A stretch of 64,000 bases of DNA from Burkholderiales bacterium (GTDB taxonomy: Bacteria; Pseudomonadota; Gammaproteobacteria; Burkholderiales; Burkholderiaceae_C). The DNA lies in assembly GCA_017307855.1 (NCBI GenBank), contig JAFKGD010000004.1:62001-126000 (forward strand), read 5' to 3'. Under the pieces are notes generated by a model. That model did no database searches, was not told the DNA's origin, and saw nothing but the letters and a program-made list of their open reading frames with translations. Position 1 is the first letter of the stretch, and every line of letters begins with the position of its first letter. Both the position numbers and the translations under genes were made by a program. Shown here piece after piece: positions 16,110 through 31,674 of the stretch.

Positions 16110-16805
16110 TCAACCGGCCCACACCACACTCTCGTCCAGCGGCGCGCGCGGTGTGCGGAAACCGTTGGCGCGGTGGTCCTCGTCCGACCAGCCGAACGAG
16201 ATGCCGCAGACGATGCGCCGGCCAGCCGCGATGTCCAGATGCTCGCGCAGCGTGGCGGGATGGGCGGCCACCGCGGCCTGCGGTATGGCCGCGATGCCCA
16301 GCGCCTGCGCGGCGAGCAGGAAGTTGGCCACGTAGGCACCGCAATCGATGGCGCCGTAAGTTCCCAGCGCCTCGTCGGAGGTGACGATCGCCAGGTGCGG
16401 TGCGCCGAACAGCCGGAAGTTCTCGGCCGACTGCCGCGCCGACGCCTCGCGGTCGCCAGCCGCGATGCCCACGGCGCCATAGAGCTGCATGGCACAGTCG
16501 CGCCGCCGCTGCCGGTAGACGCCTTGGTACTCGCGGGGCCAGTCCAGCTCGGGGCGGCCGGGCTGGTCGGCCTGCGTCTGCAAGGCGCTTCGCAGGCGCT
16601 CCAGCCGAGCGCCGCTGGCAATGTGCACCTGCCACGGCTGCGCGTTGCACCACGACGCCGTGCGCTGCGCGGCCTCGAGCACGCGCACGATCTGCCCGCG
16701 CGCCACCGGCTCCGGACGGAAGGCCCGGCAGCTGTGGCGATCGCGCAGCAAGGCGGCCAGCGTCTCGTAGGCGGACGGGGCCGGCGGCAGCCCAGCGCTG
16801 CTCAT
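16110..16805 (-). CDS. Nitroreductase-family flavoprotein
   Basis: A 231-residue FMN-dependent nitroreductase-fold protein with the N-terminal FMN-binding segment RHSCRAFRPEPV (about 24-35), the NAQPWQVHI motif (about 61-69) and the GWSDEDHRANGFRTPR C-terminal segment. The ATG at 16805 overlaps the CoA-transferase stop by 4 nt (ATGA), so it is the last gene of the catabolic operon. Family members reduce nitro groups, quinones or enoyl systems using NAD(P)H. In this setting, reduction of a conjugated or aromatic acyl intermediate is possible but unproven. A BluB-type role seems less likely from context. Confidence 0.88.
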   Translation of the reverse strand: MSSAGLPPAPSAYETLAALLRDRHSCRAFRPEPVARGQIVRVLEAAQRTASWCNAQPWQVHIASGARLERLRSALQTQADQPGRPELDWPREYQGVYRQRRRDCAMQLYGAVGIAAGDREASARQSAENFRLFGAPHLAIVTSDEALGTYGAIDCGAYVANFLLAAQALGIAAIPQAAVAAHPATLREHLDIAAGRRIVCGISFGWSDEDHRANGFRTPRAPLDESVVWAG

Positions 16806-18031
16806 GCGGGTGGGGCGGCTACCACGCCGCGCTCGACGAGGTGTCCGAATTCGTGGGACGACACACCCAGGTGGGCGCTCAGCACTTCCTCGGTGTGCTG
16901 GCCCAGCCGTGGCGCGGGTTGCACGGGCGCCGACTCGCCACGCGAGAAGGACAACGGCAGCCCGGGCGCCAGCAACCGGCCCGCCCCGCCCTGCTCCACC
17001 TCGCCGAACAGCGGATTCGCCAGCGAGCAGGCATCGTCCTCGCGCAGCAGTTGCGACACCGTCTGGTAGCGGCCCCAGCACACGCCGTGCCGGTCGAACA
17101 CCGCGCGCAGGTCGCCGAAGCTGCGGGCGCCGATGCGCTGCCCCACCAGTTGCGCCAGCGGCTCGCGCGCGAGGAAACGGTTGCCTTCCTGCCTCAGGTC
17201 GAGCTCGAGCCCGGCGCCGATGCGGGCCACCTCGTCGCCGATCTCCAGCGCGTCGCACAGCGCGCGCCACTGCTTGCCTGTGAGGCCCACCACCATCACA
17301 CGCTCGCCGTCGGCGGTGGCGAAGTCGTGCCCGAAGGCGCCGAACAGGTGGTTGCCGTGGCGCGGCCGTTCATGCCCCAGCTGCGCCTCGGCCAGAAAGC
17401 CCAGGTGGCCGATGGAAGCCAGCGCCACGTCTTCCAGCGCGAGCTTGACGTGCTGCCCCTCGCCGGTACGACGGCGGTGGCGTTCGGCGGCCAGCACGCC
17501 GGTGGCCGCCATCTGGCCGCAGATCAGGTCCCACGCCGGCAGCACGTGGTTGACGGGCTGGTCGGCCGCGTGGCCCTGGGGCCCCGTCAGGTAGGGCATG
17601 CCCACGCGCGAATTGATGGTGTAGTCCACCGCGGATCCACCGTGCCGGTCGCCCTGCACCGTGAGCTGGATCAGATCGCCGCGCCGCTCGCGCAGCGCAT
17701 CGTGGTCGAGCCAGCCGCGCGGCGGGAAGTTGGTCACGAGCACGCCGGCGTCCTCGCCCGGCGCGGTGATGAGGGCCATGGCGAGTTCGCGTCCTTCGGG
17801 CGAAGACAGGTCGAGCGCCACTGACTTCTTGCCCTTGTTGAGGCCGGTCCAGAACAGGCTGGTGCCGTCGGGTGCCACCGGCCAGCGGTGGTGGTCGAGG
17901 CCGCCCGCGAGCGTGTCGATGCGGATGACCTCGGCGCCCATCTGGGCCAGGGTCATGCCGCCCAGCGGCGCGGCCACGAAGGCGGCCGCCTCCACCACGC
18001 GCAGCCCGGAAAGCAGTCGGGTATTGGGCAT
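16802..18031 (-). CDS. Class III CoA-transferase family protein, 2-methylfumaryl-CoA isomerase (Mct)-like
   Basis: A 409-residue CaiB/BaiF-fold protein. From memory it strongly resembles mesaconyl-CoA C1-C4 CoA transferase (Mct) of Chloroflexus: FVAAPLGGMTLAQMGAEVIR (about 19-38), GLNKGKKSVALD, NFPPRGWL, VDYTIN, LAAERHRRRTGEGQ and GERVMVVGLTGKQWRAL are all in the expected order. The catalytic Asp of the class lies in PAWDLICGQ (D168). Mct moves CoA within one molecule between the C1 and C4 carboxylates of mesaconate. It directly follows the methylsuccinyl-CoA-dehydrogenase-like gene (18-nt gap), whose product would be mesaconyl-CoA. A related branched enoyl-dicarboxylate is an alternative substrate. 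Confidence 0.82.
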   Translation of the reverse strand: MPNTRLLSGLRVVEAAAFVAAPLGGMTLAQMGAEVIRIDTLAGGLDHHRWPVAPDGTSLFWTGLNKGKKSVALDLSSPEGRELAMALITAPGEDAGVLVTNFPPRGWLDHDALRERRGDLIQLTVQGDRHGGSAVDYTINSRVGMPYLTGPQGHAADQPVNHVLPAWDLICGQMAATGVLAAERHRRRTGEGQHVKLALEDVALASIGHLGFLAEAQLGHERPRHGNHLFGAFGHDFATADGERVMVVGLTGKQWRALCDALEIGDEVARIGAGLELDLRQEGNRFLAREPLAQLVGQRIGARSFGDLRAVFDRHGVCWGRYQTVSQLLREDDACSLANPLFGEVEQGGAGRLLAPGLPLSFSRGESAPVQPAPRLGQHTEEVLSAHLGVSSHEFGHLVERGVVAAPPA

Positions 18032-18049
18032 CGGAGTGCTTCCGTGGGC

Positions 18050-19789
18050 TCAGGCGGCCCGCCGCTCGGGCGTCGCCGCCGGGCTTGCGGCCAGCGCCGC
18101 GTCGAGCAGGCTGCGCGCGATCACCTTGAGCGCCAGCGTTTCCTCGGCCCCCTCGAAGATCGACAGCACGCGCGCATCGACGAAGTAGCGACTGACCGGG
18201 GTTTCTTCTGCATAGCCCATGCCGCCGTGGATCTGCAGCGCCTCGCGCGTCACCCATTCGGCCGAGCGGCAGGCCAGCAGCTTGACCAGGCTGGCTTCCA
18301 TGCGCCCGCCGCCGGCGTCCAGCGTGTCGGCCACGGCGTAGGCCAGGCGCTGGCAGGCCGCGTGGCGCGCGGCCATGCGCGCGAGCTTGGCCAGGGTCAG
18401 CGGATAGTCGGCCAGCGGCTGGCCGAACACCTTGCGGTCCTGCGCGTAGCGCAGCGCCGCGCGCAGGGCCGCGCGCATCACGCCCGAGGCGCGCCCGGCC
18501 GTCTGCATGCGCCCGCCCATCATGCCGGCCATGGTGAAGTAGAAGCCGCGGCCCAGGCCGGCGCGCTCGCCGATCACGTGGCTGTCGGGCACGAAGAAAT
18601 TCTCGAAGGCCAGGTCGAACGAGTGCATGCCGCGATAGCCGATGGTAGGGATCGCCCGGCCGGTGAGCCGGCCGCCGCCCGCGCCGCCCAGCGCGCCGGC
18701 GGGCTGCACGAAGTCGAAGGCATGGCCGTCGTCCGACGGCTTCTCCACCAGCAGCAGGCTGAGGCCGCGATGGCCCGCCGTGCGGTCCGGATCGGTGCGC
18801 GCCACCACCATCAGCAGGCCGGCCTTGCCCGCGAACGTGCACCAGGTCTTGGCACCGTCGAGGCGCCATCCTCCGTCCACGCGCGTGGCACGCAGCGCCA
18901 GGCTGGCCACGTCCGACCCATGGTCGGGCTCGGTGATCGCGATGGCGCACAGCGGATCGCCGGCGGCCAGCCGCGGCAGCCAGTGGGCCTTCTGGCTTTC
19001 GGTTCCGCCCGCCATGAGGGCACGGCTGAGGATTTCGGGCCGCGTGATCAGGCTGCCCGCGCCGGCCAGCGACGCTTCGGAGAGCGCCTCGGTCACCAGC
19101 ACCATCTGCAGCGTGTCGTCGCGCCCGTCGGGGCCGATGCCGCCGAAGCGCTCGGGAATCGACAGGCCGAACACGCCCATCTCGCGCAGCGGCTGCAGCA
19201 GGCTTTCGGGGATGGTGAGGTCGTGCCGGTGCAGCGCCTCGGCCTGCGGCGCCACCACCTCGGCGGCGAAGCGGCGGAAGGCGTTCTGCACCATGGCGTG
19301 CTGGTCGTCCAGCACCACGCCGCCCACCTCGCCGTCGGCGGCCAGCAACTGGCGGCCGGCTTCGCTGAGCGCGTCGCCGCCCGCGGCCGCGCGGCGCAGA
19401 GCCGCCCAGGCCGCATCGGCCGAGATGGCCGACAGCGGCGCGAGATCGAGGCCGAACTCGAGGTACAGCGCCTCCAGCCGGCTCAGCGTGGCCGTCACGG
19501 CATCGACGGCGAACAGCAGCGCGAGGCGCACCTCGAGCTCGCCGCTCGCCGGGCCGAGCGCGCCGCTCCAGTTGCGCGCGGCCAGCAGGTCGGCGCGCGC
19601 CCAGGCGATCTCGTAGGCGGCCACCTGGTGGCGGTCGAACTTCGCCGCGTCGACGGCGCCGCCTTCTCCCGCGCAGGCGCGGGCCAGCGCATCGCAGGCC
19701 TGGCCGAACAGCGGCTCGAGCCGGTCGAGCAATGCCACGCAGGCCGCCCGGTCGGGGGGCGATGCGATGGAAGAAACGGCGGCGTTCAT
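18050..19789 (-). CDS. Acyl-CoA dehydrogenase with long N-terminal domain, (2S)-methylsuccinyl-CoA dehydrogenase (Mcd)-like
   Basis: A 579-residue FAD acyl-CoA dehydrogenase. About 165 extra N-terminal residues, predicted helical, precede the usual catalytic core; this layout matches Mcd of the ethylmalonyl-CoA pathway. Core marks: REMGVFGLSIPERFGGIG, AITEPDHGSDVASL, the IGYRGM segment (Mcd has LGYRGM) and the catalytic Glu in IFEGAEET (about E546). Mcd oxidises methylsuccinyl-CoA to mesaconyl-CoA, and the next gene is Mct-like, so the pair makes biochemical sense. Whether it acts on methylsuccinyl-CoA or a larger alpha-branched acyl-CoA is open. It has no ethylmalonyl-CoA pathway neighbours (no Ecm or Ccr). 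Confidence 0.85.
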   Translation of the reverse strand: MNAAVSSIASPPDRAACVALLDRLEPLFGQACDALARACAGEGGAVDAAKFDRHQVAAYEIAWARADLLAARNWSGALGPASGELEVRLALLFAVDAVTATLSRLEALYLEFGLDLAPLSAISADAAWAALRRAAAGGDALSEAGRQLLAADGEVGGVVLDDQHAMVQNAFRRFAAEVVAPQAEALHRHDLTIPESLLQPLREMGVFGLSIPERFGGIGPDGRDDTLQMVLVTEALSEASLAGAGSLITRPEILSRALMAGGTESQKAHWLPRLAAGDPLCAIAITEPDHGSDVASLALRATRVDGGWRLDGAKTWCTFAGKAGLLMVVARTDPDRTAGHRGLSLLLVEKPSDDGHAFDFVQPAGALGGAGGGRLTGRAIPTIGYRGMHSFDLAFENFFVPDSHVIGERAGLGRGFYFTMAGMMGGRMQTAGRASGVMRAALRAALRYAQDRKVFGQPLADYPLTLAKLARMAARHAACQRLAYAVADTLDAGGGRMEASLVKLLACRSAEWVTREALQIHGGMGYAEETPVSRYFVDARVLSIFEGAEETLALKVIARSLLDAALAASPAATPERRAA

Positions 19790-19819
19790 TCGGTCATCTC
19801 CTAGTCGTTGTTCTGTCGC

Positions 19820-21145
19820 TCAGGCCGGCACGGCCGCGCCCGAGAGTTCGGCCAGCGCCAGCGCCGACACGGTTCGCGCAGTATCGGCACAGGCCTGCGT
19901 TCCGCCGTCACCATAGTCTTTCACCGCATCGCCCACGTGCCACACATTGGGCAGCGGCGTGGTCTGCGGCTGGTCGAAACCCGCGCACGAGCGCTGGGCG
20001 GGCCAGTCGCCGCGCATCACGCGGATCGACAGCATCTTCGCACCTTCGAAGCCGGGGAACTCGTCGCGCAGATCCTGCAGGGCCGCCTCGGTCTCGCCCT
20101 TCTCGTCGAAATCGCCGATGGCCGGGCGCGGCACGGCGTAGGCCACGTACTGATGCCAGCCGGCCGGTGCCAGTTCGGGGCAGGTCGCCGTCAGCTCGCC
20201 GATGTTGCACAGGTTGCGCGTGCGGCCGAAGGTGAGCAGGCCCGGGGCGTCGTACAGGCGCTCGCGCGTGGCGAAGTTGATGACGATGTTGGCGGCCGGC
20301 TTCGAGGTTTCCTGCATCGCCCGCACGTAGTCGGCGCCGAAGGCCTCGGCGCCGGGCAGGCGCACGGTGGCGCGCGGGCCCATGTTGCTGATCACCGTGC
20401 GTGCGTTCACGCGCAGGGGCTGGCCGTCTTTCACCAGATCGACACCCACCGCGCGGCCGCCCTCGGTGCGCAGCGCGGTCACGGGCGATTCGAGCCAGAC
20501 CTCGCCGCCATGGCGGCGGATGCCGTCCGTGAGGTCGTTCCACAGCCCCACCGTGCCGCGCGGGCAGAAGCCGAAGCGCTTGAACGCGCCCTTGACGGCG
20601 AAGTACGTGAGGAACGCGCGCGCCGGCAGCTCGTCGCTGTTGGCGGCGAAGATGGCCGCGCACAGGTTGCGGAAGATGGCGTGCACCGTCTCGTTCTTCG
20701 TGTACTGCGACAGCCACTCGGCCGTCGTGAGCTTCGCCTCGGGCAGGTCGCCGGCACGCGCGTCGGCGAACTTGGCGCCGATCTTGGCCGCCTGCTTGGT
20801 GAAGCCGCCCAGCAGCATGCCCCAGCCGCCCTTGGCCACGTTGATGATCTTGCCGTCGATGCGGAACACGGTGGCCGGATTGGGCTCGCGCACGTCCACC
20901 GGCACGCCGACCAGCGAGAAGGTTTCCTCGAAGGTGGAGCCCAGCTCGATCGCGATGGCGCCGATGTTGACGGTGAAACCGTCGATCTGCTCGCTGGAGG
21001 CGCGCCCGCCGACGCGGGCCAGGCTCTCCGCCACGAGCACCTTCTTGCCCGCGGCCAACAGGCGCGCGGCGGCTGACAGGCCGCCTGCGCCAGCGCCGAT
21101 GATGATGGCGTCGTAGGTGACGGGATGGATGGCGGGGGTCGTCAT
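19820..21145 (-). CDS. FAD-dependent oxidoreductase, CrtI/phytoene-desaturase-like
   Basis: A 441-residue flavoprotein of the amine oxidase/CrtI superfamily. The Rossmann motif IIIGAGAGGLSAAARLLAAG (about 14-33) is followed by a VGGRASSEQIDGFTVNIGA region and a C-terminal FAD-contacting VWHVGDAVKDYGDGGTQACA. No membrane segment is evident. No carotenoid genes are nearby; it sits between the hydroxyacyl-CoA dehydrogenase and the Mcd-like gene (gaps 60 and 30 nt) in a CoA-thioester operon. It probably desaturates or isomerises a ring- or chain-modified intermediate. A carotenoid role is unlikely; the substrate is unknown. Confidence 0.85.
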   Translation of the reverse strand: MTTPAIHPVTYDAIIIGAGAGGLSAAARLLAAGKKVLVAESLARVGGRASSEQIDGFTVNIGAIAIELGSTFEETFSLVGVPVDVREPNPATVFRIDGKIINVAKGGWGMLLGGFTKQAAKIGAKFADARAGDLPEAKLTTAEWLSQYTKNETVHAIFRNLCAAIFAANSDELPARAFLTYFAVKGAFKRFGFCPRGTVGLWNDLTDGIRRHGGEVWLESPVTALRTEGGRAVGVDLVKDGQPLRVNARTVISNMGPRATVRLPGAEAFGADYVRAMQETSKPAANIVINFATRERLYDAPGLLTFGRTRNLCNIGELTATCPELAPAGWHQYVAYAVPRPAIGDFDEKGETEAALQDLRDEFPGFEGAKMLSIRVMRGDWPAQRSCAGFDQPQTTPLPNVWHVGDAVKDYGDGGTQACADTARTVSALALAELSGAAVPA

Positions 21146-21205
21146 GTCGTATGTCTCCTTGGAACTCGGAAGTGAATGAATGAAGGGTTCGTGCCGTGCC
21201 GGCGC

Positions 21206-22723
21206 TCAGCCGCGCGCGGCCTCGGGCGTGAGCAGCGGCAGGCCGAGCGCCACGCGGCGCTCCAGCCACGGGCTGGGGCGGTAGCGCGGATCGCCCGTCA
21301 GTTCCAGCATGCCGCGCAGGATGGCCAGCACGCGCTCACCGCCGATGGCGTCGCCCCAGGCGAGCGGCCCGCGCGGATAGCCCAGGCCCAGGCGCACGGC
21401 GTCTTCGATGTCGTCCACCGAGGCGATGCCGCGCTGGGCGATCTGCGCCGCGATGTTGACCACCGTGGCCAGCACGCGCTGCACGATGAAGCCCGGGCTG
21501 TCGCTGATCACGGTGACGCCGGTGCCGTCGCTGGCCAGCAGCGCCTGCGCGGCATCGCGCGCGGCCGGCGCCGTGGCCACGGTGAGCATGAGCGTGCGAT
21601 GCCGCGCCAGCCCGGGCAGCGGATCGACCGCCACGGTCCGCGTGGCATCCAGGCCCAGCCGGGCCGCCTCGTGGCTGGCATCGGTGCCCCAGGGTTGGAC
21701 GATGCACAGGTCGGCCTGCGCTGCGGCGGTTGCGTGGGTCGCGCCCGCCGAGCCGACCAGCGCGAGCAGCGCGCCATGGTCGGTGGCGGCGGGATCGATC
21801 CAGACGGCGAGCGACGCCGGCAGTGCGGGCACGGCCAGGGCCGCCGCCTTCACCGGCTCGCCGCCGCTGTACTCGTACCAGCCCCGGCCGCTCTTGCGGC
21901 CGAACAGCCCGGCGGCCACGCGCGGCGCCACCAGCGACGACGGTCGGAAGCGCGGCTCGTGATGGAACTGTTCGTAGATCGAGGTCATCACCTTGCCCGA
22001 GACGTCGAGACCCGTCAGATCGAGCAGCTCGAACGGCCCCATGCGGAACCCGGCCGCCTCGCGCAGCACGCGATCCACGCCAGCGACATCGGTCACCTGC
22101 TCTTCCAGCAGCCGCAGGCCTTCGGTGTAGAGCCCGCGCCCCGCGTGGTTGACGAGGAAGCCCGGCTGGTCGGCCGTGACGACGGCGCGGTGTCCGGTGG
22201 CGGCCACCAGCGCGCGCAGGCGCTCGACCACCTGCGGCTCGGTGCGCACGGCGGCGATCACCTCCACCACCCGCATCAGCGGCACGGGATTGAAGAAGTG
22301 CAGGCCCGCCACACGGCCCGGGTGCGCGCAGGCGGCGGCGAGCTCGGCCACCACCAGCGACGAGGTGTTGCTGGCCAGGATGGCATGAGGCGCCACCACG
22401 GCTTCGAGCTGCCGGAACAGCGCGCGCTTGGCCTCCAGGTCTTCGATCACGGCTTCGACCACCACGTCGCACGCGGCCAGATCCTGCAACTGGCCGACGG
22501 CCTCGATGCGCCCGCGGATGATGTCGAATTCGGCCGCCGTGATGCGGCCCTTCTCGACACCGCGGCCGATCATGCCGTTGGCAAATTCGACCGCGCGCGC
22601 CGCCGCGCCCTCGAAACTGTCGAAGCACAGCACGCGATGGCCGGCCTGGGCGAACAGCTGCACGATGCCGCGCCCCATGGTGCCGGCGCCCACGACGCCT
22701 AGCGTGACGATGTTGTCTTGCAT
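21206..22723 (-). CDS. 3-hydroxyacyl-CoA dehydrogenase (PaaH/PaaC-like, two C-terminal domains)
   Basis: A 505-residue NAD-dependent beta-oxidation enzyme. The Rossmann motif GVVGAGTMGRGIVQLFAQAG (about 9-28) and LHFFNPVPLMRVVEVI mark the NAD domain. Two 3HCDH C-terminal domains follow (the second from about residue 400), as in the PaaH family and unlike the ~285-residue single-domain enzymes. It would oxidise the 3-hydroxyacyl-CoA made by the adjacent enoyl-CoA hydratase (27-nt gap) before thiolytic cleavage. The expected products are a 3-ketoacyl-CoA and NADH. Confidence 0.92.
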   Translation of the reverse strand: MQDNIVTLGVVGAGTMGRGIVQLFAQAGHRVLCFDSFEGAAARAVEFANGMIGRGVEKGRITAAEFDIIRGRIEAVGQLQDLAACDVVVEAVIEDLEAKRALFRQLEAVVAPHAILASNTSSLVVAELAAACAHPGRVAGLHFFNPVPLMRVVEVIAAVRTEPQVVERLRALVAATGHRAVVTADQPGFLVNHAGRGLYTEGLRLLEEQVTDVAGVDRVLREAAGFRMGPFELLDLTGLDVSGKVMTSIYEQFHHEPRFRPSSLVAPRVAAGLFGRKSGRGWYEYSGGEPVKAAALAVPALPASLAVWIDPAATDHGALLALVGSAGATHATAAAQADLCIVQPWGTDASHEAARLGLDATRTVAVDPLPGLARHRTLMLTVATAPAARDAAQALLASDGTGVTVISDSPGFIVQRVLATVVNIAAQIAQRGIASVDDIEDAVRLGLGYPRGPLAWGDAIGGERVLAILRGMLELTGDPRYRPSPWLERRVALGLPLLTPEAARG

Positions 22724-22750
22724 GTGTCAGTCAGGTGGTTGGGACGACGC

Positions 22751-23563
22751 TCACTCGCCCTTGAACTCGGGACGCCGCTTGTCGAGGAAGGCACGCATGC
22801 CCTCGGTCTTGTCGGCGGTGTCGAACAGCAGCAGGAATTCGCGGTTTTCCAGCGCCAGCGCGGCATCGAGCGGCAGATCGGGCCCCTGGCGCAGCACGGC
22901 CCGCGTGGCGCGCACGGCCTTGGGCGGCATGCGCGCGGCCTTGAGCGCCAACGCCTGCGCGCGTGCCAGCGCCTGGCCTTCGGGCGCCAGTTCGGCCACC
23001 AGGCCGAGCTGGAAGGCGCGCTCGGCCGTGAGCTGTTCACCCGTGAGCAGCAGCATCGCCGCCACCGGCCGCCCGACGGCACGCAGCAGCCGCTGGGTAC
23101 CGCCCGCGCCCGGCATGATGCCGACGGCCAGCTCGGGCTGGCCGAAGCGCGCCGACGGATCGGCCACGATGAAGTCGCACATCATCGCGAGCTCGCAACC
23201 CGCGCCGAGCGCGAAGCCACTCACAGCCGCGATCACCGGCTTGCCGCAGCGCGCCACCGGTGTCCAGTACTGGCCCAGGTCGATGTCGGCGACCTGCTGG
23301 GCGCCCTTGTCCACCAGCAGGTTCAGGTCGGCGCCGGCGGCGAACACCGTGTCGCCGCCGGTGATGACGATCGCGCGCACGGCGGCGTCGGCGTCGAGCC
23401 GGGCCACGGCCTGGGCGATGGCCGCGCGCATGGCGAGGTCGAGCGCATTGCGTTTGGCCGGACGGTCGAGCGTGACGGTGGCCACGGGCCCATTGCATTC
23501 GACGCGAACCAGTGTCTGCGCCGCATGTGCGTCAGGCACGGCGGATGTCGCTTCGGCAGTCAT
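22751..23563 (-). CDS. Enoyl-CoA hydratase with both catalytic glutamates
   Basis: A 270-residue crotonase-fold enzyme. The oxyanion-hole segments are GADL and GFALGAGCELAMMCD, and both hydratase glutamates are present (E124 in GCELA, E144 in GQPELAVG). Of the three crotonases in this operon it is the only one with the standard hydratase pair, so it is the best candidate for the hydration step. It overlaps the next crotonase stop by 4 nt (ATGA). Confidence 0.93.
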   Translation of the reverse strand: MTAEATSAVPDAHAAQTLVRVECNGPVATVTLDRPAKRNALDLAMRAAIAQAVARLDADAAVRAIVITGGDTVFAAGADLNLLVDKGAQQVADIDLGQYWTPVARCGKPVIAAVSGFALGAGCELAMMCDFIVADPSARFGQPELAVGIMPGAGGTQRLLRAVGRPVAAMLLLTGEQLTAERAFQLGLVAELAPEGQALARAQALALKAARMPPKAVRATRAVLRQGPDLPLDAALALENREFLLLFDTADKTEGMRAFLDKRRPEFKGE

Positions 23564-24423: not shown

Positions 24424-25622
24424 GCCCCCTCGCGGCCGACGATGGATACCGAGCACACGTTCTGCGACGGCTGGCCGCCCAGGTTGTGCGTGAGTCCGAT
24501 GGTCGGGTTGGCCAGCTGGCGCGGCCCTGCCCTTCCCTGCAATTGCAGGTACATCTCGTAGAGCATGCGAATGCCGCTCGCGCCGATGGGATGGCCGAAG
24601 CACTTGAGGCCGCCGTCGATCTGGCAGGGGTTGCGGCCTTCGGCGTCGAAGGCGCCATCGAGCACGTCGCGCACGGCGCCGCCCACTTCCGACAGGCCCA
24701 GGTCTTCCATCGTCACCAGCTCGGTGATGGAGAAGCAGTCGTGCACCTCGGTCATGCTGACCTGGCGGCGCGGATCGGTGATACCGGCCTCGGCATACGC
24801 CTTCCTGGCGGCGATGCGCGCGGTGTGCACGTAGCTGCCGTCCCATTCGTTCGAGTGCATCTCCCAGCCGTTGGACACCGACACCTGCAGCGCCTTGAAG
24901 GTGACCAGGTCGCGCTTGCCCAGGCCGCGTGCGATGTCGGGCGTGGTGACGATGACCGCAGCCGCACCGTCGGAGACGCCGGCGCAGTCGAACAGGCCCA
25001 GCGGCTCCGCGATGATGGGCGCCTTGAGCACGGTCTCCATGCTCACGGCCTTCTGGAAGTGGGCCTTGGGGTTCCTGGCGCCGTTGGCGTGGCTCTTGAC
25101 CGAGACATGCGCGATCGCGCGCTTGAGCAGGTCGGCATCGACGCCATGGCGCGCGCGGTAGGCGCTGGCCAGCTGGGCGAAGTTGGCCGGGGCCACCGCG
25201 TTGGGATACCACTGGGGGATGTAGGTGCCGACGGCCGACACGGGCAGGCCGCCGTAGCCGGTGTCCTTGAGCTTCTCGACGCCCAGCGCGATGGCGATGT
25301 CGCAGGCGCCAGAGGCCACGCCGTACACGGCCGCGCGGATGGCCTCGGAGCCGCCGGCGCAGAAGTTCTCCACGCGGGTGACGCCGATGTTGGGCAGGCG
25401 CAGCGCGATGCCCATGGGCGTGCCGCCGCGGCCCACGCCCACGTCGTCCATGTGGGTGGAGAACCAGGCGGCGTCGAGCTGCGACGGCTCGATGCCCGCG
25501 TCCTGCATGGCCTCGGTGTAGGCCTCGACCATGAGGTCCTCGGGGCTCGCGTCCCAGCGCTCGCCGAACTTGCTGCAGCCCATCCCGAGGATGGCGACCT
25601 TGTCCTTGATGCCCGTTGCCAT
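24420..25622 (-). CDS. SCP2-type thiolase / acetyl-CoA acyltransferase
   Basis: A 400-residue thiolase of the nonspecific lipid-transfer (SCP-x) branch. The nucleophilic Cys is C88 in VENFCAGGSEAIR. HDCFS (about residue 296) and GHPIGASG (about 345) carry the other active-site residues. This branch typically works with a DUF35 OB-fold partner; here a DUF35 domain is the C-terminal part of the protein encoded immediately upstream (25629-27149, 6-nt gap). Expected reaction: thiolytic or retro-aldol cleavage of a side-chain acyl-CoA. IpfD of ibuprofen degradation and the BbsB thiolase are functional analogues. Confidence 0.9.
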   Translation of the reverse strand: MATGIKDKVAILGMGCSKFGERWDASPEDLMVEAYTEAMQDAGIEPSQLDAAWFSTHMDDVGVGRGGTPMGIALRLPNIGVTRVENFCAGGSEAIRAAVYGVASGACDIAIALGVEKLKDTGYGGLPVSAVGTYIPQWYPNAVAPANFAQLASAYRARHGVDADLLKRAIAHVSVKSHANGARNPKAHFQKAVSMETVLKAPIIAEPLGLFDCAGVSDGAAAVIVTTPDIARGLGKRDLVTFKALQVSVSNGWEMHSNEWDGSYVHTARIAARKAYAEAGITDPRRQVSMTEVHDCFSITELVTMEDLGLSEVGGAVRDVLDGAFDAEGRNPCQIDGGLKCFGHPIGASGIRMLYEMYLQLQGRAGPRQLANPTIGLTHNLGGQPSQNVCSVSIVGREGA

Positions 25623-25628
25623 GATCGT

Positions 25629-27149
25629 TCAGCCTTTCCGCGCCGCGTCGGCGCCTGCCGCGGCCGGGCGCACCGGCACGGCCTTCCAGAAGTAGCGCGT
25701 GAAGCCGCGCGTCTCGTCGATGTCCTTGATGCGCAGCACCATCTCGACCTCGGTGCCGCTGTCGATCTCGCCCTCGCCCACGTCGGTGAACTCCATCAGG
25801 ATGCGGCCGCCGCCTTCGAAGTCCACCTGGCCATAGCGGTGCGGCGGCGAGCGGTGGAACGAGAGGTACTCGGCCGACCAGCTGAGCACGCGCGCGCGCC
25901 GCTCGGCCAGCTTGTGCGGGCGCTGCGTGTCGAGCTGCGCGCCGGCCGGGTCGTACGACAGCCGCGACGGCGGGAAATGGACGCTGCCCGTGACTTCGCA
26001 GCGGCCGGCCACCAGGCCCAGCAACGCGCGGCGATGGCGCCAGGCGGTGGAGAGCGCGGTCTTGCGGTCCTGCTCGCCCCGCATGCCGCGTTCGAGTTGC
26101 AGTTGTCCCTTGAACGCCAGGAAGCGGGTGTACGAGGTCTCCTCGACGCCGCGCGCCACCCATTCGGCCACGCCGCGCGCCGGGCGGAAAGCCGTGATGG
26201 CGTCGGTCGCTCGCAGCACGATCGCCTGCGCGCCGCTGCCGAACTGCGCCAGCAGGATCAGCTGGCCCGGTTGCGCGCGTTCGAGCACGTGGGCCAGCAG
26301 CAGCATCCCGTGCGCCGTGCCGGTGTCGCCCACGCTCGAGGCAAGGTTGTCGGCCACGGCCTCGGCGCGCACGCCGCAGGCCTTGGCCAGTTGCTGGTCC
26401 ATCTTCTGGAAGGTGGTGGGGAAGATGAAGTGATCGATGGCGGCCGCGTCGACGCCGGCTTGCGCCAGCGCCTCGGCCACGGCGCGTGGCACCAGGCGGG
26501 CAATGCCTTCGTCGCGCACCCAGCGCTCTTCCCAGTGGTAGTCGATGTCCTCGCCGGCACCGCGGAAGTGGTCGACGAAGTCGGCCTGCACCGTGCCCGT
26601 GCCCAGGTGCTCTGCCAGCACGCCGGCGCCCTGTCCCACGCGCAGCGCGGCGGCGCCGTCGCCGTAGTCGAGTTCCTGCGAGCTGGCTGCGCGGGTCTTG
26701 CGGCTGTCGGCCGCCAGAACCAGCGTGTCGCCTGCACCGCCGCGCACCTGCGCCAGCGCCTGCAGCAAGGCCGCCAGGCCCGCGCGCGTGGAGCCTGTCA
26801 CGTCCAGCGCCTGCACGCCTTCTTCGAGCGTCAGCGCCTCGGCCACCACGCCGGCATTGGAGCGGTCGGCGAACGGCAGCGTGCCCGACGCCAGCAACAG
26901 CCCGCGCACGGCGCTGCGGTCATCGGCCGGGCCCAGGCAGTCGCGCGCGGCCGCCACGGCCAGCGTGATGCTGTCTTCGTCCCAGTTGTTGAACGAACGC
27001 GTGCCGCGCGCACCCTTGGCCGCCCCCGGTGCATACCAGGCATTGGCCTGCGCCGCGGCCTGCCGGGACAGGCGCAGGCGCGGCACGTAGCCGCCATACC
27101 CCGTGATGCCGGTGATCCCGGTGAGGCCGGTGATGTCCTTGGAAGTCAT
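25629..27149 (-). CDS. HMG-CoA synthase-like protein fused to a DUF35 OB-fold domain
   Basis: A 506-residue two-domain protein. Residues about 14-370 form a thiolase/HMG-CoA-synthase-like domain that opens with GYGGYVPRLRLSR. The position of the catalytic Cys in archaeal-type HMGS (ACKAGT) reads STRAGL (S120-T121), so the nucleophile is missing; a His remains at DHFIFPTTFQKM (H240). Residues about 380-495 form a DUF35 domain whose zinc-ribbon cysteines are reduced to one (C384). The N-terminus has a short GLTGITGITG repeat coded by repeated ATCACCGG-like units. ATG at 27149 overlaps the upstream gene's stop by 4 nt. It probably scaffolds or completes the adjacent thiolase; a separate aldol/retro-aldol activity is possible. 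Confidence 0.82.
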   Translation of the reverse strand: MTSKDITGLTGITGITGYGGYVPRLRLSRQAAAQANAWYAPGAAKGARGTRSFNNWDEDSITLAVAAARDCLGPADDRSAVRGLLLASGTLPFADRSNAGVVAEALTLEEGVQALDVTGSTRAGLAALLQALAQVRGGAGDTLVLAADSRKTRAASSQELDYGDGAAALRVGQGAGVLAEHLGTGTVQADFVDHFRGAGEDIDYHWEERWVRDEGIARLVPRAVAEALAQAGVDAAAIDHFIFPTTFQKMDQQLAKACGVRAEAVADNLASSVGDTGTAHGMLLLAHVLERAQPGQLILLAQFGSGAQAIVLRATDAITAFRPARGVAEWVARGVEETSYTRFLAFKGQLQLERGMRGEQDRKTALSTAWRHRRALLGLVAGRCEVTGSVHFPPSRLSYDPAGAQLDTQRPHKLAERRARVLSWSAEYLSFHRSPPHRYGQVDFEGGGRILMEFTDVGEGEIDSGTEVEMVLRIKDIDETRGFTRYFWKAVPVRPAAAGADAARKG

Positions 27150-28114
27150 GTCGGATGTCTCGTTGCGGATGAAGAAGAAGCGGCAGCGGGTGCAAACAGG
27201 CGCTCGCGCACGAAATCTCCGATGGCACGGCGCGCCGCGCGGGCCTGTGCGAGTTCGGGGAATTGCTGGAAGACGTGGATCATTCCGTCGGCCACCTGCA
27301 GCCGGGCATCGACGCCGGCGGCCTGCGCACGGCGCGCGAAATCGGTGGCGTCGCTCAGCACGGTCTCGCGGTCGCCCACCTGCAGCAACAGGGGCGGCAG
27401 GCCGGCCAGATCGGCGAACAGCGGCGAGACACCGGGCGATCGCGCGTCGGCGCCCTCGCCCAGGTAGTTGCGCGCCATCGCCTGGATCATGGGCCGCTGG
27501 TGGATGGGATCGCTGGCGGCCCGCGTCTCGTAGCTCTCGCCCGATGCGCTCATGTCGGTCCACGGCGACAGCAGCACGGCCCCGGCCGGCAGCGGCCTGC
27601 CGGCATCGCGCAGGCGCAGCAGCGCGCCGAGCACCAGGTTGCCGCCGGCCGAGTCGCCCGCCATCACGAGCCGCTGCGGATCGTGGCCCTGCGACAGCAG
27701 CCATTCCCAGGCCGCCAGCGCGTCGTCGTGCGCGGCCGGCCAGCGATGCCCGGGCGCCAGGCGGTAGTCCACGCCCAGCACGCGGCAGCCGCAGGCGGCC
27801 GACAGGCCCGCCATCAGTTCACGGTGCGAGTACGCCGAGCCGACCTGGAAGCCGCCGCCGTGCAGGTACAGCATCACGCGCGTGGCGTCGGCCCCGGGCG
27901 CCACCACCCAGTCGCCCAGGAGGTCGCCGACGGCGACGGGCTCGACCTGCGCATCGACCGCATCGGCGCCGAAGAGCTGGTCCCAGTCCGCGCGCATCTG
28001 CACCACGGGCGTGTCACGGCGCCACCGGCGGTAGACGCCGAGCACGCGCGCGATGACCGCTTCGACGGCCGCGGGGTCGTCGCGTTCGGCCAGGGCTTGA
28101 TCCGGGCGAGTCAT
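27146..28114 (-). CDS. Alpha/beta hydrolase (HSL/acetyl-esterase family)
   Basis: A 322-residue serine hydrolase of the hormone-sensitive-lipase family: oxyanion motif HGGGFQVGSA, nucleophile elbow GDSAGG and C-terminal catalytic His in DGMIHVFQ. The ATG at 28114 overlaps the SDR stop by 4 nt; an in-frame GTG at 28123 is less likely. No export signal, so it acts in the cytoplasm. In this operon it could hydrolyse an ester, a lactone or an acyl-CoA intermediate, for example after Baeyer-Villiger-like or retro-aldol chemistry. The substrate is not evident. Confidence 0.9.
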   Translation of the reverse strand: MTRPDQALAERDDPAAVEAVIARVLGVYRRWRRDTPVVQMRADWDQLFGADAVDAQVEPVAVGDLLGDWVVAPGADATRVMLYLHGGGFQVGSAYSHRELMAGLSAACGCRVLGVDYRLAPGHRWPAAHDDALAAWEWLLSQGHDPQRLVMAGDSAGGNLVLGALLRLRDAGRPLPAGAVLLSPWTDMSASGESYETRAASDPIHQRPMIQAMARNYLGEGADARSPGVSPLFADLAGLPPLLLQVGDRETVLSDATDFARRAQAAGVDARLQVADGMIHVFQQFPELAQARAARRAIGDFVRERLFAPAAASSSSATRHPT

Positions 28115-28926
28115 GCGCCACACCCCATGCCGCCAGAAACGCCCAGCACTTCGCCGGTGACATAGCCGGCCTCGTCCGACACCAGGAAAGCGACCGCTGC
28201 GGCCACCTCGTCGGGCGTGCCCAGGCGGCCAGCCAGCGTGGCGCCGGTCATGGCGCCCAGGAGGCGCTCGCCCCCCTGCTCCACCGCCTGCCGCAGCAGC
28301 GGCGTGTCGATGGGCCCCGGCGCCACCACGTTGGCCGTGATGCCCTTGCGGCCGTTCTCCCGGGCGATGGACCGCGTGAAGGCGATCACCCCGCCCTTGG
28401 CCGCCGCGTAGACGGCCGCGCCGCTGGAGCCCAGCCGGCCGGCTTCGGAGGCGATGTTGACGATGCGGCCCTGGCCCCGCGCCTGCATGGCGGGCAGCGC
28501 GGCATGGGTGGTGGCCAACACGCCTTCGAGATTGATGCCCAGCAGGCGACGCCAGTCGGCCTCTGTGGTCTGCGTGAACCAGGCATGCTGGTCGACGCCG
28601 GCGTTGTTGACGAGGATGTCGTGCGGCCCGGTGTCCAGCACCGCATGGCGCGCCGCGGCCAGATCGCTCACGTCGAGCGCGATGGCCGTGACGCGGGCCG
28701 AGGGCGCTGCGGCGGTCAGTTCACCGGCGAGCGCCTGCGCGCCGCCGAGGTCGAGGTCGGCGATCACCACGTCGGCACCGGCCGCGGCCAGGCGGCGCAC
28801 GATGGCGGCACCGATGCCTTTCGCACCGCCCGTGACGAAGGCCCGGCGGCCGGCCAGCGGCCGCGCGCCACCGGCGGCGGAAGAGGATGAGGACGTTTGC
28901 GCGTTCATGGAGGACACCGCGTGCAT
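28111..28926 (-). CDS. SDR-family dehydrogenase (BadH/hydroxyacyl-CoA dehydrogenase-like)
   Basis: 271 residues from the ATG at 28926, 2 nt past the preceding stop; a second ATG at 28908 would give 265 residues and neither has a strong ribosome site. Classical SDR marks: TGGAKGIGAA for NAD(P), NNAG, and a Ser with YAAAK as catalytic residues. The sequence recalls 2-hydroxycyclohexanecarboxyl-CoA dehydrogenase (BadH) and related ring-alcohol dehydrogenases. A dihydrodiol or ring-hydroxyl dehydrogenase acting after the Rieske oxygenase is the natural inference. The Ser-rich N-terminal tail (SSSSS) is probably disordered. Confidence 0.87.
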   Translation of the reverse strand: MHAVSSMNAQTSSSSSAAGGARPLAGRRAFVTGGAKGIGAAIVRRLAAAGADVVIADLDLGGAQALAGELTAAAPSARVTAIALDVSDLAAARHAVLDTGPHDILVNNAGVDQHAWFTQTTEADWRRLLGINLEGVLATTHAALPAMQARGQGRIVNIASEAGRLGSSGAAVYAAAKGGVIAFTRSIARENGRKGITANVVAPGPIDTPLLRQAVEQGGERLLGAMTGATLAGRLGTPDEVAAAVAFLVSDEAGYVTGEVLGVSGGMGCGA

Positions 28927-28928: not shown

Positions 28929-29762
28929 CTATCGGCCCGTGAAGCGCGGTGCGCGCTTCTCGATCACGGCGGCCAGGCCTTCGAGCGCATCCTGCATGCC
29001 GGCCAGTTGCGCCTGGGTGCGGTTCTCTTCCGGCATGACGGCTTCGGCGCCCTGCCCCAGGCCGTTCCACAGCAGGCGCTTGGTGGCGGCGAGCGCGGCC
29101 GGTGCGCCGGCCGCGAGCTGCCGGGCCACCTCCATCGCGCGCGGCTCCAGCTCGGCATCGGGCACCACGCGCGTCACCAGACCGATGCGAAGCGCTTCGG
29201 CGGCATCGATCACCGGGTTGAACAGCAGGATCTCCATGGCGCGGCGAAATCCCACCAGGTGCGTGAGCGTGACCGACACGCCTGCATCGGGCACCATGGC
29301 CACGCGCGTGGCGCCAGCCAGGAACTTGCTCGACTCGCCCGCGATCACCACGTCGGACGAACACACCAGCCCCATGCCGCCGCCGCCCGCTGCGAAGCCC
29401 TGCACCGCCGTGACCACGGGCGCGTTCAGCCGCATCAGCAGCGACACCACCAGTTGCAGGTATGACGTGGCGGGGCGGATGTAATCGGGCAACTGCTCGC
29501 CGCGCGACAGAAAGGTGTGCACGTCGCCGCCCGCGCAGAAGTTGCGGCCTTCGCCAGTGAGCAGCACCACGCGCAGGCGGCCGTCCCCGTGCAGCAGCAT
29601 CAGCGCCTCGTGCAGCGCACGCAGCAGATCCATGTCGAGGCCGTTGGCCGCGTCGGGACGGTTGAGCCGCACGTGGGCCACGCCGTCGGCGTGCAGGTCC
29701 ACGCGCACGGGGCCATCGGCCACCAGGGGTTGGGGGGCTGTCGTCGCCTTGTCTGCGCTCAT
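28929..29762 (-). CDS. Crotonase-family protein, PaaG-like isomerase residues
   Basis: A 277-residue crotonase. Oxyanion-hole segments CAGGDVHTF and GFAAGGGGMGLVCSSD are present. The hydratase glutamates are absent, and an Asp occurs in AMVPDAGVS at the position used by PaaG-type and Delta3-Delta2 isomerases. It lies 80 nt after the oxygenase beta subunit, the largest gap in this part of the operon, and 2 nt before the SDR. Expected role: shifting a double bond, or ring rearrangement of a dihydrodiol-type acyl-CoA. Confidence 0.88.
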   Translation of the reverse strand: MSADKATTAPQPLVADGPVRVDLHADGVAHVRLNRPDAANGLDMDLLRALHEALMLLHGDGRLRVVLLTGEGRNFCAGGDVHTFLSRGEQLPDYIRPATSYLQLVVSLLMRLNAPVVTAVQGFAAGGGGMGLVCSSDVVIAGESSKFLAGATRVAMVPDAGVSVTLTHLVGFRRAMEILLFNPVIDAAEALRIGLVTRVVPDAELEPRAMEVARQLAAGAPAALAATKRLLWNGLGQGAEAVMPEENRTQAQLAGMQDALEGLAAVIEKRAPRFTGR

Positions 29763-29842
29763 CGTCTGTCTCCGGCGCCTCGGGGGGCGCATGTTGTCCA
29801 TCGGGCCATGGCGCGGGAACCGCGCGCGGGATCCGGTTGCGC

Positions 29843-30376
29843 TCAGATCAGGAACGCCATCGAGAACAGGGCCTTCGCGTTGTTGGTGAGGACCACGGTC
29901 TTGGCGGCCATGCGCAGCCCGCCCGACGCGTCGCGGCGCAGCCGGTACTCGTTGCGCGAGCCCCAGAGGGTGTCCTCGCGCGCATGCGCCTCGAACACCA
30001 GCGCGTTGCAGGTCACGGTGATCTCGTCGCCCTCGCGGCGCAGGATCTCGACGTTGGACACCACGCGCCGCAGCGGCGAGCGCGGCGTCTGGCTGTAGCG
30101 CTTGCCGGTGTGGAACTGGCGCACGCGCAGCGCGATGCGCGAGCGGTTGTCGTAGATGATCGACATCTGCTGCTCGGGATCGATGTCCTCGCCGTTGGCG
30201 GGAATCCAGTAGACGCCGTCGTCGGTCCACAGGGATTCCCAGGCGTCGTATTCGTGGTTGTCCTGCAGGCGCGCCTCGCGGTAGATGAATTGCGAGATCT
30301 CGTGGTGCAGCAGCAGATCGTCGAGCGACGGCGGCGCCGCCGTCGCGATGGCGGGCGCGGGGGTCACGGTTTCCAT
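29843..30376 (-). CDS. Rieske oxygenase small (beta) subunit
   Basis: A 177-residue beta subunit of an aromatic-ring-hydroxylating oxygenase (NTF2-like fold). It has the family layout: helix opening LLLHHEISQFIYREARLQD, DDGVYWIPANGED and a C-terminal VVLTNN.KALF strand. Start choice: ATG at 30376; an in-frame GTG at 30385 overlaps the alpha-subunit stop by 4 nt (GTGA) and is closer to a GGAGG box, so it is a real alternative that adds only three residues. It would form an alpha3beta3 hexamer with the alpha subunit. Confidence 0.93.
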   Translation of the reverse strand: METVTPAPAIATAAPPSLDDLLLHHEISQFIYREARLQDNHEYDAWESLWTDDGVYWIPANGEDIDPEQQMSIIYDNRSRIALRVRQFHTGKRYSQTPRSPLRRVVSNVEILRREGDEITVTCNALVFEAHAREDTLWGSRNEYRLRRDASGGLRMAAKTVVLTNNAKALFSMAFLI

Positions 30377-30381
30377 GGTGC

Positions 30382-31674
30382 TCACGCGGCCTCCATCAGC
30401 GAACGGTAGTGGCGCCAGATGCCGCGCGTGGGCGTCTCGTCGGTGGCGTCGCCGATCAGGTAGCCGTTCTCGTCGGTGCGCTCGCGGTGCTTGCCGCGGC
30501 CGAGGTAGAGCCATTCGGGGCTCTTCGCCTGCACGCCGAGCTGGGTGCGTTCGTACATCTCGGCGTCGTCGGCCAGCAGGAAGCCGGCCGGCCCGACCGA
30601 GCCCATGGTCTGCTGGCGCATGCGGCGGTTGAGGTCGGGCGCGCCCTTGAACTGCAGCGCGGTGACGTGCTGCACCGTCTCGTTCACCGACAGCGGCTGG
30701 ATCACGAAGATCTGGATCTCCGCGATGAACAGGTTCGGGTAGATCATGATGTGCGGCGTGCCTTCGATCATGATCTCGCGCGCTTTCTGCTCGCCGTAAG
30801 AAGCCTTCATGCGGCTCACGTAATCAGGCAGACGGTCGGCCGTGGTGCCGAACCAGGACAGCGGCACGTCGCGCTTGCGGAACTCGGGCCGCAGGTCGTT
30901 CTCGGAATGGCCTTTGCCGAAGTAGCGCGACACGGCGGTCGAATCGCTGCTGTAGAGCGTGCCGATGCCGCTTTGCGCCACTTCGAAGATGGAGGCGTGC
31001 ACGAACGAGGGGTGGTAGCCGTCCGTCTCGTTCTCGACGAGGAACTTCCAGTTGGACTTGACCTTGTGCTTGAGGAAGCCGGCCGTGACTTCGACCTCGC
31101 CCTCGGGCGACGTGCGGCACAGCGCGTCGATGGCCTCGCAGGCCGCGCCCAGGTGCTCTTCGAGCGAGGGGCCTTCGGCCGCCATGCTGCCGAACACGAA
31201 GCCGCGGTACGAAGCCACGCGCGCCACCTTGCCCAGGCCGAGGGTCGACCTGTCGACGCCTTCGTAGCCCGAGGGGAAGGGATAGCCGCGCAGCGCGCCG
31301 TCGTTGGCGAACGTCCAGCCGTGGTACGGGCAGGTGAAGGACCTCGCCGAGCCCTTGTCGGTCATGCACACGCGGTTGCCGCGATGCGGGCAACGGTTGT
31401 GCAGCAGGTGCACCTGGCCTTCCTTGTCGCGCGTCATGATCACCGGCTCGGGGCCGATGGACTTCATCACGTAGTCGTTGGGTTTGGGGATCTCGCTCTC
31501 GTGGCCCACGTACACCCATGTGCGGAACCAGATCTGGCGCAGCTCTTCCTGGAAGATGTCGGGATCGGTGTAGAGAGAGCCGTGCACCTGGTGATCGCGC
31601 ACGAGCTCGCTCCAGGGGATCGGCCGGGACGATGCCGGCGCGGTGGCGGCGTGTCCGGGGGCGCATGTGTGCAT
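30382..31674 (-). CDS. Rieske non-heme iron oxygenase large (alpha) subunit
   Basis: 430 residues from the ATG at 31674, which has GGAGG 8 nt upstream (a GTG at 31689 is rejected). The Rieske centre ligands are C95-H97 (NRCPHRG) and C115-H118 (CPYHGW). The catalytic-iron site is D218...H221-H226 (ETDGYHPSFVH), with the Asp bridging neighbouring subunits. With the beta subunit this is a benzoate/anthranilate/terephthalate-type oxygenase. It heads a 15-gene operon of CoA-thioester enzymes, so its substrate may be a CoA ester, as in ibuprofen degradation. Electrons should come from the divergent ferredoxin at 31863 and the reductase at 14041-15309. Confidence 0.94.
   Translation of the reverse strand: MHTCAPGHAATAPASSRPIPWSELVRDHQVHGSLYTDPDIFQEELRQIWFRTWVYVGHESEIPKPNDYVMKSIGPEPVIMTRDKEGQVHLLHNRCPHRGNRVCMTDKGSARSFTCPYHGWTFANDGALRGYPFPSGYEGVDRSTLGLGKVARVASYRGFVFGSMAAEGPSLEEHLGAACEAIDALCRTSPEGEVEVTAGFLKHKVKSNWKFLVENETDGYHPSFVHASIFEVAQSGIGTLYSSDSTAVSRYFGKGHSENDLRPEFRKRDVPLSWFGTTADRLPDYVSRMKASYGEQKAREIMIEGTPHIMIYPNLFIAEIQIFVIQPLSVNETVQHVTALQFKGAPDLNRRMRQQTMGSVGPAGFLLADDAEMYERTQLGVQAKSPEWLYLGRGKHRERTDENGYLIGDATDETPTRGIWRHYRSLMEAA

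Follow-up and report, generated by a model that had tools for sequence, protein, structure and literature searches.

A conserved operon of a Burkholderiales bacterium predicted to break down a methyl-branched ring acid by way of methylsuccinyl-CoA

Analysis of a 64,000-nucleotide stretch of a Burkholderiales bacterium (assembly GCA_017307855.1, contig JAFKGD010000004.1, positions 62,001 to 126,000; hereafter the window) reveals an operon of 14 intact, co-directed and tightly packed genes on the minus strand at 16110-31674. All frames are stop-free in an open-reading-frame check, and the order of transcription is rieA, rieB, ech1, sdr, est, hmgs, thl, ech2, ech3, had, crtI, mcd, mct, nfr (Table 1). 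We propose, with a probability of about 0.58, that the operon is part of a regulon, under TetR control, by which the cell grows on an imported ring acid that is activated with coenzyme A (CoA) and carries a methyl branch. The operon is real, conserved and undescribed in the literature searched: no description was found among the titles and abstracts listed, with subscription papers mostly outside the coverage. The initial annotation, which had read the locus as an undescribed operon for oxygenation and CoA-thioester degradation, is borne out on that point. Every family it named is present as an open frame with a family match, namely the Rieske alpha and beta subunits, three crotonases, short-chain dehydrogenase (SDR), hormone-sensitive-lipase-type esterase, DUF35, SCP2-type thiolase, CrtI-like oxidase, Mcd/Mct-like pair and nitroreductase. 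Its count of 15 genes is reached only when the divergent ferredoxin gene or the TetR gene is added.

Conservation and the proposed methylsuccinyl-CoA ending

Fair confidence attaches to our naming of how the pathway ends, though not of how it begins. Among solved chains, Mcd matches 8ciw best, a (2S)-methylsuccinyl-CoA dehydrogenase, with 742 bits across residues 19-568, the next being 6es9 with 294 bits. The top solved matches of Mct are 7xkg, which we take to be an Mct, and the 2-methylfumaryl-CoA isomerase 8apq, followed by a chain at 101 bits; aligned with the solved chains, Mct keeps the PAWD motif, whose Asp is presumably catalytic. These matches point to a methylsuccinyl-CoA intermediate and therefore to a methyl-branched substrate. 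Since an Mct is needed only if the dehydrogenase yields the C1 ester, thiolysis having left CoA next to the methyl-bearing carbon, the methyl group would sit at C4 of 3-oxoadipyl-CoA. A part for Mcd in an ethylmalonyl-CoA pathway was considered and rejected, because no crotonyl-CoA carboxylase/reductase scores over the cut-off in the genome (best 82.5 bits, cut-off 378.6).

The five-gene core ech1-sdr-est-hmgs-thl stands in the same order at 16 other loci and in one further relative, L130, which makes the operon more than a chance arrangement. These 16 core loci are 15 of the best 80 loci from a genome contig scan with at least 525 confirmed relatives (L018-L032), together with a Variovorax sp. 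SRS16 plasmid found by tblastn of plasmids with hmgs as query. The SRS16 plasmid carries the whole operon minus nfr, plus the ferredoxin, reductase and TetR genes, at 59-88% identity. Core-locus hosts include Caenimonas, Hydrogenophaga, Variovorax WS11 (plasmid), Pseudacidovorax, Sterolibacterium (metagenome-assembled genome, MAG), Bradyrhizobium, Spongiibacter, Zhongshania, Erythrobacter and Labilithrix (MAG), and the positional counterparts share 52-90% identity with the window's genes. Both rieA and rieB are found in 13 of the 16 (L024 and L026 lack them, and L028 is truncated at ech1), crtI in 12, and mcd with mct in 13 (absent from L021 and L028; L031 ends soon after had).

Locus L130 lies in G414, another genome from this family, and comprises the operon, reductase and TetR gene at 68-91% identity. 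A Rhodococcus opacus plasmid (L116) carries rieA (62%), rieB, ech1 (58%), hmgs (34%), thl (47%), crtI (49%), nfr (53%), a reductase and ligases, and a Sulfitobacter plasmid carries rieA, rieB, ech1, sdr and est with Meh-like, CoA-transferase-like and lyase-like genes. The L116 homolog indicates that nfr is not a stray gene; across the 86 compared loci and in L130, nfr had no match. The distribution is patchy: a sample of 150 genomes of the family contained 6 with mcd, and 300 genomes of the order contained 3 with hmgs, our genome included in both counts. Elsewhere in the scan, most loci show hmgs and thl but lack the rest of the operon.

Relatives also carry the genes that would complete a C5 route. 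A Meh-like gene (FAS1_DH, mesaconyl-C4-CoA-hydratase-like) follows had in 10 of the 16 core loci, and a CitE/RipC-like lyase gene occurs in 8, beside mcd in three of them (L019, L030, L032). The window has neither; contig C6 of the same genome carries both in one cluster, the Meh-like gene at C6:538969 (51%) and the RipC-like lyase at C6:542242 (35%; 158 bits to the RipC model, cut-off 375). That cluster (L105, C6:538933-543075) consists of genes for a LysR regulator, the Meh-like hydratase, an acyl-CoA dehydrogenase, a CaiB-type CoA transferase and the RipC-like lyase, and is probably an itaconate/mesaconate/methylsuccinate operon. Where the Rieske alpha subunit is at least 60% identical (n = 16: 13 core loci plus L116, L117 and L118, three of nine further plasmid records), an Mct-like gene of at least 49% identity is present in 12 loci and a Meh-like gene in two others.

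The module is also found by itself. At locus L134 (G332:C9, 13851-18522) four adjacent genes, meh-ccl-mcd-mct, lie without the oxygenase operon, a predicted free-standing cassette for methylsuccinyl-CoA disposal. The genes neighbouring the free-standing cassettes L132-L134 were uninformative. On the conjugative IncP plasmid pAKD34 (L106, JN106175.1, 18146-28364), mcd-mct again lacks the oxygenase and has ISPps1 transposase genes on both sides, from which context the pair seems mobile; it shares a plasmid arm with rdpA, a nearness that is only suggestive. A Paraburkholderia D15 plasmid (L107) groups mcd-mct with a hydratase and a lyase, and has an intradiol dioxygenase and maleylacetate reductase about 10-15 kb away, also only suggestive. 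The thiolase-like gene of D15 was rejected as a thiolase, its thiolase residues being missing, so that D15 supports solely the mcd-mct-hydratase-lyase grouping.

These genes are of the same families as the Mct, Meh and citramalyl-CoA lyase that, with Mcd, end the 3-hydroxypropionate bi-cycle: mct is in the operon, meh and the lyase in relatives. Here, however, they would form the end of a degradation operon, in a genome with no crotonyl-CoA carboxylase/reductase over the cut-off. The Cupriavidus/Pseudomonas methylsuccinate/itaconate cluster (Ict, Ich, Ccl, Mcd-C4, Msi), in the available portion of its description (PMC12290011), reaches the same end through mesaconyl-C4-CoA and citramalyl-CoA to pyruvate and acetyl-CoA. 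Its dehydrogenase acts on the C4 ester and Mct is unneeded, whereas our operon pairs a C1-type dehydrogenase with Mct.

Proposed pathway and its regulation

All reactions of the proposed pathway are inferred from families, key residues, gene order and operators that can be read in the sequence. After uptake by the ABC importer and CoA ligation, the acid would, with fair confidence, be dioxygenated by the Rieske enzyme with its own reductase and ferredoxin. More weakly, we suggest that the SDR, the CrtI-like and flavin mononucleotide (FMN) flavoenzymes, the PaaG-like crotonases and the hydrolase may, in no assigned order, rearrange and open the ring, with no ring-cleavage dioxygenase taking part. 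The PaaF-like Ech3 and PaaH-like Had would then, again fairly confidently, lead to 4-methyl-3-oxoadipyl-CoA. Thl, scaffolded by a catalytically dead fusion of an HMG-CoA-synthase (HMGS)-like domain with DUF35, would cleave this to acetyl-CoA and methylsuccinyl-C1-CoA, a step to which we give moderate confidence. The predictions are strong for Mcd, which would form mesaconyl-C1-CoA, and for Mct, which would shift CoA to C4. A mesaconyl-C4-CoA hydratase and a citramalyl-CoA lyase (on contig C6 here) would, at moderate confidence, finish with acetyl-CoA and pyruvate. The substrate can hardly be inferred; our guess is a para-methyl aryl or alicyclic alkanoate of the p-tolyl or p-menthane type. Rings with methyl branches occur widely in plant terpenoids, lignin and pollutants.

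A precedent for the proposed Thl step is MmlC, the 4-methyl-3-oxoadipyl-CoA thiolase of the mml pathway, which yields methylsuccinyl-CoA and acetyl-CoA in the part of the source available (PMC6449761). This modified ortho-cleavage of methylcatechols shares with the operon the predicted 4-methyl-3-oxoadipyl-CoA and both products. In contrast, its ring is opened to a lactone by an intradiol dioxygenase, whereas for the operon we propose Rieske and CoA-thioester chemistry with an attached methylsuccinyl-CoA disposal module. The same part of the mml text does not state the later fate of methylsuccinyl-CoA. If our reading is true, the operon would supply a missing end for methylsuccinyl-CoA from methyl-substituted rings, whose further fate is not given in the available portions of the literature compared, and mcd-mct beside a ring-attack module would be a marker for finding such pathways. 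With the phenylacetate (paa) pathway the operon has PaaG-, PaaF- and PaaH-like enzymes, a thiolase and a predicted oxoadipyl-CoA stage in common, but it lacks the PaaABCDE oxygenase and PaaZ. A regular phenylacetate oxygenase (PaaA, 528 bits) is encoded elsewhere in the genome, so the operon is not simply a phenylacetate route.

Alignment of Thl reveals the Claisen-thiolase residues C88, H294 (in HDCF) and H344 (in GHPIG), all kept in the six HMGS-linked homologs aligned with it. The hmgs gene, which adjoins thl both here and at the 16 core loci, has PhlA as its best solved match (9skh, 91.5 bits; 5m3k, 89.3 bits), followed by archaeal HMGS (6esq_I, 69.7 bits). Its DUF35 part scores 27.0 bits with PF01796, borderline against the cut-off of 27.1, and 24.6 bits with the DUF35 chain of 6esq; the DUF35 domain named in the initial annotation is thus present, not as a separate protein but as the C-terminal part of the 506-residue fusion. 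In 34 of 34 aligned hmgs homologs, hand-chosen from the loci compared, the synthase Cys position is never Cys, while a DED motif is invariant. An active HMG-CoA synthase was consequently rejected, and the missing Cys together with the likeness to PhlA leads us to read hmgs as a predicted PhlA-like scaffold.

From the genes alone, thl and the fusion would make up an arrangement of the PhlACB or ACAT-HMGS-DUF35 type, in which a thiolase likewise stands beside an HMGS-like protein and DUF35; the three-part scaffold is described in the portion available (PMC12329534). The operon differs in joining the HMGS-like part and DUF35 in one polypeptide, in the missing synthase Cys and in its proposed degradative use. 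The fusion with the same thiolase, apart from the rest of the operon, is found at L033-L097 (Caulobacter, Parvibaculum, the PS1/OCS116 clade and others), many of them marine or soil Alphaproteobacteria. If true, our proposal would give a degradative use to a cysteine-less HMGS-like/DUF35/thiolase assembly that is widespread in the scanned marine and soil Proteobacteria and for which no assigned role was found in the literature searched.

Three putative operators tie the operon to the TetR gene, the ferredoxin, the ferredoxin reductase and the ABC-importer/CoA-ligase operon. The palindrome TAGTCCGACTGGTCGGACTA, on the rieA strand, fills the 18-base spacer between TTGACA and TATTAT and overlaps TATTAT, a position that predicts a repressible promoter. 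At up to three mismatches the pattern has five matches in the window, against 0.19 expected, three of them with 0 or 1 mismatch; at up to two mismatches it occurs in the whole 5-Mb genome at three places, all at this locus. The exact pattern lies in the rieA-ferredoxin gap of 8 relatives as well. Because the third operator precedes the importer/ligase operon, uptake and activation are probably in the regulon, in agreement with the earlier suggestion of a ligase elsewhere in the regulon.

Weighing the alternatives

The initial annotation had seen in this locus the core logic of the ibuprofen (ipf) pathway. Such a route would proceed by ipso dioxygenation of a 2-arylpropionyl-CoA, retro-aldol removal of the side chain by a thiolase-like protein with DUF35, and meta-cleavage of the catechol elsewhere, and the ipf locus of pIBU218 does have a CoA ligase, Rieske alpha and beta subunits, a thiolase-like protein and DUF35 in common with ours, where the ligase is in the regulon and the thiolase is of SCP2 type. 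As systems, the two are not orthologous. Our alpha and beta subunits are about 40% identical to the pIBU218 genes, against 62-88% for homologs of the operon type; IpfD is 29% identical to Thl over 213 residues and, like the D15 protein and a R. erythropolis protein in the same alignment, lacks the equivalents of C88, H294 and H344; and hmgs has no match at the ipf locus at E 1e-8. The ipf route forms a catechol and needs an extradiol dioxygenase, according to the part of the source available (PMC9195938), and bphC is annotated beside ipfA on pIBU218. None of the 14 genes came up as a ring-cleavage dioxygenase in family searches, and PF00903, a family that does not tell specificity, has 20 matches in the genome and 0 on this contig (intradiol and other extradiol families were not searched). 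The crotonases, Had, Mcd and Mct would also be left unexplained. We therefore reject the plain ipf pathway and consider even an ibuprofen-type variant very improbable. In the earlier interpretation, then, the undescribed CoA-thioester operon, the ligase and the Mcd/Mct pair hold, while the ipf logic does not and the consequence of the pair, methylsuccinyl-CoA and a methyl branch, had not been drawn. The arylalkanoates and alicyclic or terpenoid acids that it listed stay candidate substrates.

A stronger contender, though still unlikely, is a methyl-branched cyclohexane or cyclohexene acid of alicyclic or terpenoid origin, with the Rieske enzyme as a peripheral module, an acyl-CoA dehydrogenase used instead in some hosts, and the same methylsuccinyl-CoA ending. 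Bradyrhizobium L024 and L026 keep the core with the Rieske genes replaced by ligase or CoA transferase plus acyl-CoA dehydrogenase genes; the SDR is nearest to BadH, a 2-hydroxycyclohexanecarboxyl-CoA dehydrogenase, and the hydrolase is of the hormone-sensitive-lipase type. Yet rieA, rieB, reductase and ferredoxin share the same putative operator and are kept in 13 of 16 loci, and alpha/beta Rieske enzymes mostly act on aromatic rings, which we count against this alternative. Less probable again is that Mcd and Mct serve a larger 2-substituted succinyl-CoA, from an aryl- or alkyl-succinate, the CoA move readying it for beta-oxidation by Ech, Had and Thl in the manner of the anaerobic naphthalene or indoleacetate routes. 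For a larger ring diacid, an intramolecular CoA transfer with subsequent acyl-CoA dehydrogenation is on record, in the accessible part of one report (PMC11659651), and Mct falls under the cut-off of its model; the 742-bit match of Mcd to a methylsuccinyl-CoA dehydrogenase and the Meh- and lyase-like genes with which relatives complete a C5 route speak against it.

Several results weigh against the methyl-branched ring-acid regulon that we prefer. Mct scores 499 bits against the curated TIGR04253 cut-off of 725 (530 bits for the SRS16 copy), so we claim Mct-like working rather than equivalog membership, and the enzyme may act on a larger, homologous substrate. Of the eight lyase matches, five are just 29-34% identical and sited outside the operon; L021 and L028 have the core without mcd and mct; Rhodococcus L116 shows no clear C5 module; and L024 and L026, with an acyl-CoA dehydrogenase and CoA transferase in place of Rieske genes, indicate that the substrate class may vary. 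On the side of regulation, L130 has no exact operator match, and neither the hydratase nor the lyase gene of our own genome has an operator nearby. A backward control pattern found 9 genome places at up to two mismatches, against 3 for the real pattern. The number of matches is therefore by itself no evidence, and it is the position of all three in gene-start regions of one locus that carries the regulon argument.

More tentatively, and at somewhat less than even odds, the operon may represent a second kind of aerobic CoA-dependent pathway for aromatic or alicyclic compounds. In it, a Rieske enzyme would dearomatise a methyl-bearing ring acid, crotonases and flavoenzymes would open the ring in the absence of a ring-cleavage dioxygenase, and thiolysis would fall to a thiolase held in a PhlACB-like complex whose HMG-CoA-synthase subunit is dead. 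The methylsuccinyl-C1-CoA would be disposed of by a module borrowed from the 3-hydroxypropionate bi-cycle (Mcd, Mct, Meh, citramalyl-CoA lyase), one that is also found travelling by itself.

Features of the locus and neighbouring genes

Table 1. Genes and putative operators at the locus, in window coordinates (aa, amino acids; bit scores are for the models or solved chains named)
Feature	Position	Strand	Description
rieA	30382..31674	-	Rieske oxygenase alpha subunit, 430 aa; PF00355 66 bits, PF00848 52 bits
rieB	29843..30376	-	Rieske oxygenase beta subunit; PF00866 86 bits
ech1	28929..29762	-	PaaG-like crotonase; PF00378; best solved 3hrx 150 bits
sdr	28111..28926	-	short-chain dehydrogenase; TIGR03206 (BadH) 238 bits, cut-off 431 not reached
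est	27146..28114	-	alpha/beta hydrolase, hormone-sensitive-lipase family; PF07859 213 bits; NF058651 277 bits, under cut-off 430
hmgs	25629..27149	-	HMG-CoA-synthase-like domain with C-terminal DUF35, 506 aa; catalytic Cys absent
thl	24420..25622	-	SCP2/ACAT-type thiolase; PRK06157 682 bits, cut-off 403
ech2	23560..24423	-	PaaG-like crotonase (VPDWG); PF00378 142 bits; best solved 3hrx 117 bits
ech3	22751..23563	-	PaaF-like enoyl-CoA hydratase, both Glu motifs; PRK08138 311 bits (cut-off 355), PaaF 265 bits (cut-off 371)
had	21206..22723	-	two-domain 3-hydroxyacyl-CoA dehydrogenase, PaaH-like; PRK08268 632 bits (cut-off 508), PaaH model 398 (cut-off 669)
crtI	19820..21145	-	CrtI/amine-oxidase-like flavoprotein; PF01593 83 bits; best solved 3ka7 111 bits
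mcd	18050..19789	-	predicted methylsuccinyl-CoA dehydrogenase, 579 aa, N-extended acyl-CoA dehydrogenase; best solved 8ciw
mct	16802..18031	-	class III CoA transferase, Mct type; 7xkg 495 bits, 8apq 484 bits; TIGR04253 499 bits
nfr	16110..16805	-	nitroreductase-family FMN enzyme, accessory; PF00881 98 bits
TetR-family regulator gene	15462..16085	+	PF00440, PF17932; 61% in SRS16
Ferredoxin reductase, for Rieske enzyme	14041..15309	-	PF07992, PF14759; 59% to SRS16 gene between mct and tetR
[2Fe-2S] ferredoxin, divergent from rieA	31887..32189	+	PF00111 on longer frame; 73% in SRS16
ABC importer (branched-chain-amino-acid-type) and AMP-dependent CoA ligase (10066-11937)	6931..13560	-	PF00005, PF00501, PF02653, PF13458
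Putative operator 1	31763..31782		perfect palindrome TAGTCCGACTGGTCGGACTA, within rieA promoter spacer
Putative operator 2	15359..15378		1 mismatch; between reductase and TetR gene
Putative operator 3	13657..13676		1 mismatch; about 100 bp upstream of transporter/ligase operon

The closest solved chains to rieA are 9o71 (220 bits) and 7yls (218 bits), and its identity is 82% in Variovorax SRS16, 62% in Rhodococcus opacus PD630 and 40% in pIBU218. Ech1 has an Asp in VPDAG, the VPD Asp being aligned in 3hrx, and lacks the classical hydratase Glu pair. The ferredoxin reaches 35 bits with an ISC-type ferredoxin model, under the cut-off. Three 4-kb bins (16001-28000) have a G+C content of 71.8-72.9%, against 66.4-70.4% in the other 13 bins of the window, which fits acquisition from elsewhere and is no proof of it.

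The importer and ligase genes would lie on one transcript, within which a Pfam search gave no match for the frame at 9219-9920. The best model for the ligase is FadD11 (329 bits, under the cut-off of 950). Relatives give independent links to CoA ligases. In L130 such a gene is located inside the operon, although the ligase of the window, 25% identical to it, belongs to a different type. The ligases beside the operon in SRS16 and Rhodococcus L116 are 50% identical to each other.

Beside the ferredoxin gene, at 32209-33949, the window encodes a TesB-type thioesterase and a Flavodoxin_2 oxidoreductase; both families recur as flanking genes in L019, and L018, L023, L025 and L029 have a TesB-like gene near the operon. 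The stretch at 3-9222, in which the operator pattern has no match, encodes additional ABC transporter components, a second AMP-dependent ligase at 992-2845 that is 38% identical to the first, and a homolog of APH-type kinases that shares 38% identity with the one in Bradyrhizobium L024. The intergenic region 13800-13930 contains many repeated GCGCAG/GCGAAG-like motifs, perhaps a dispersed repeat.

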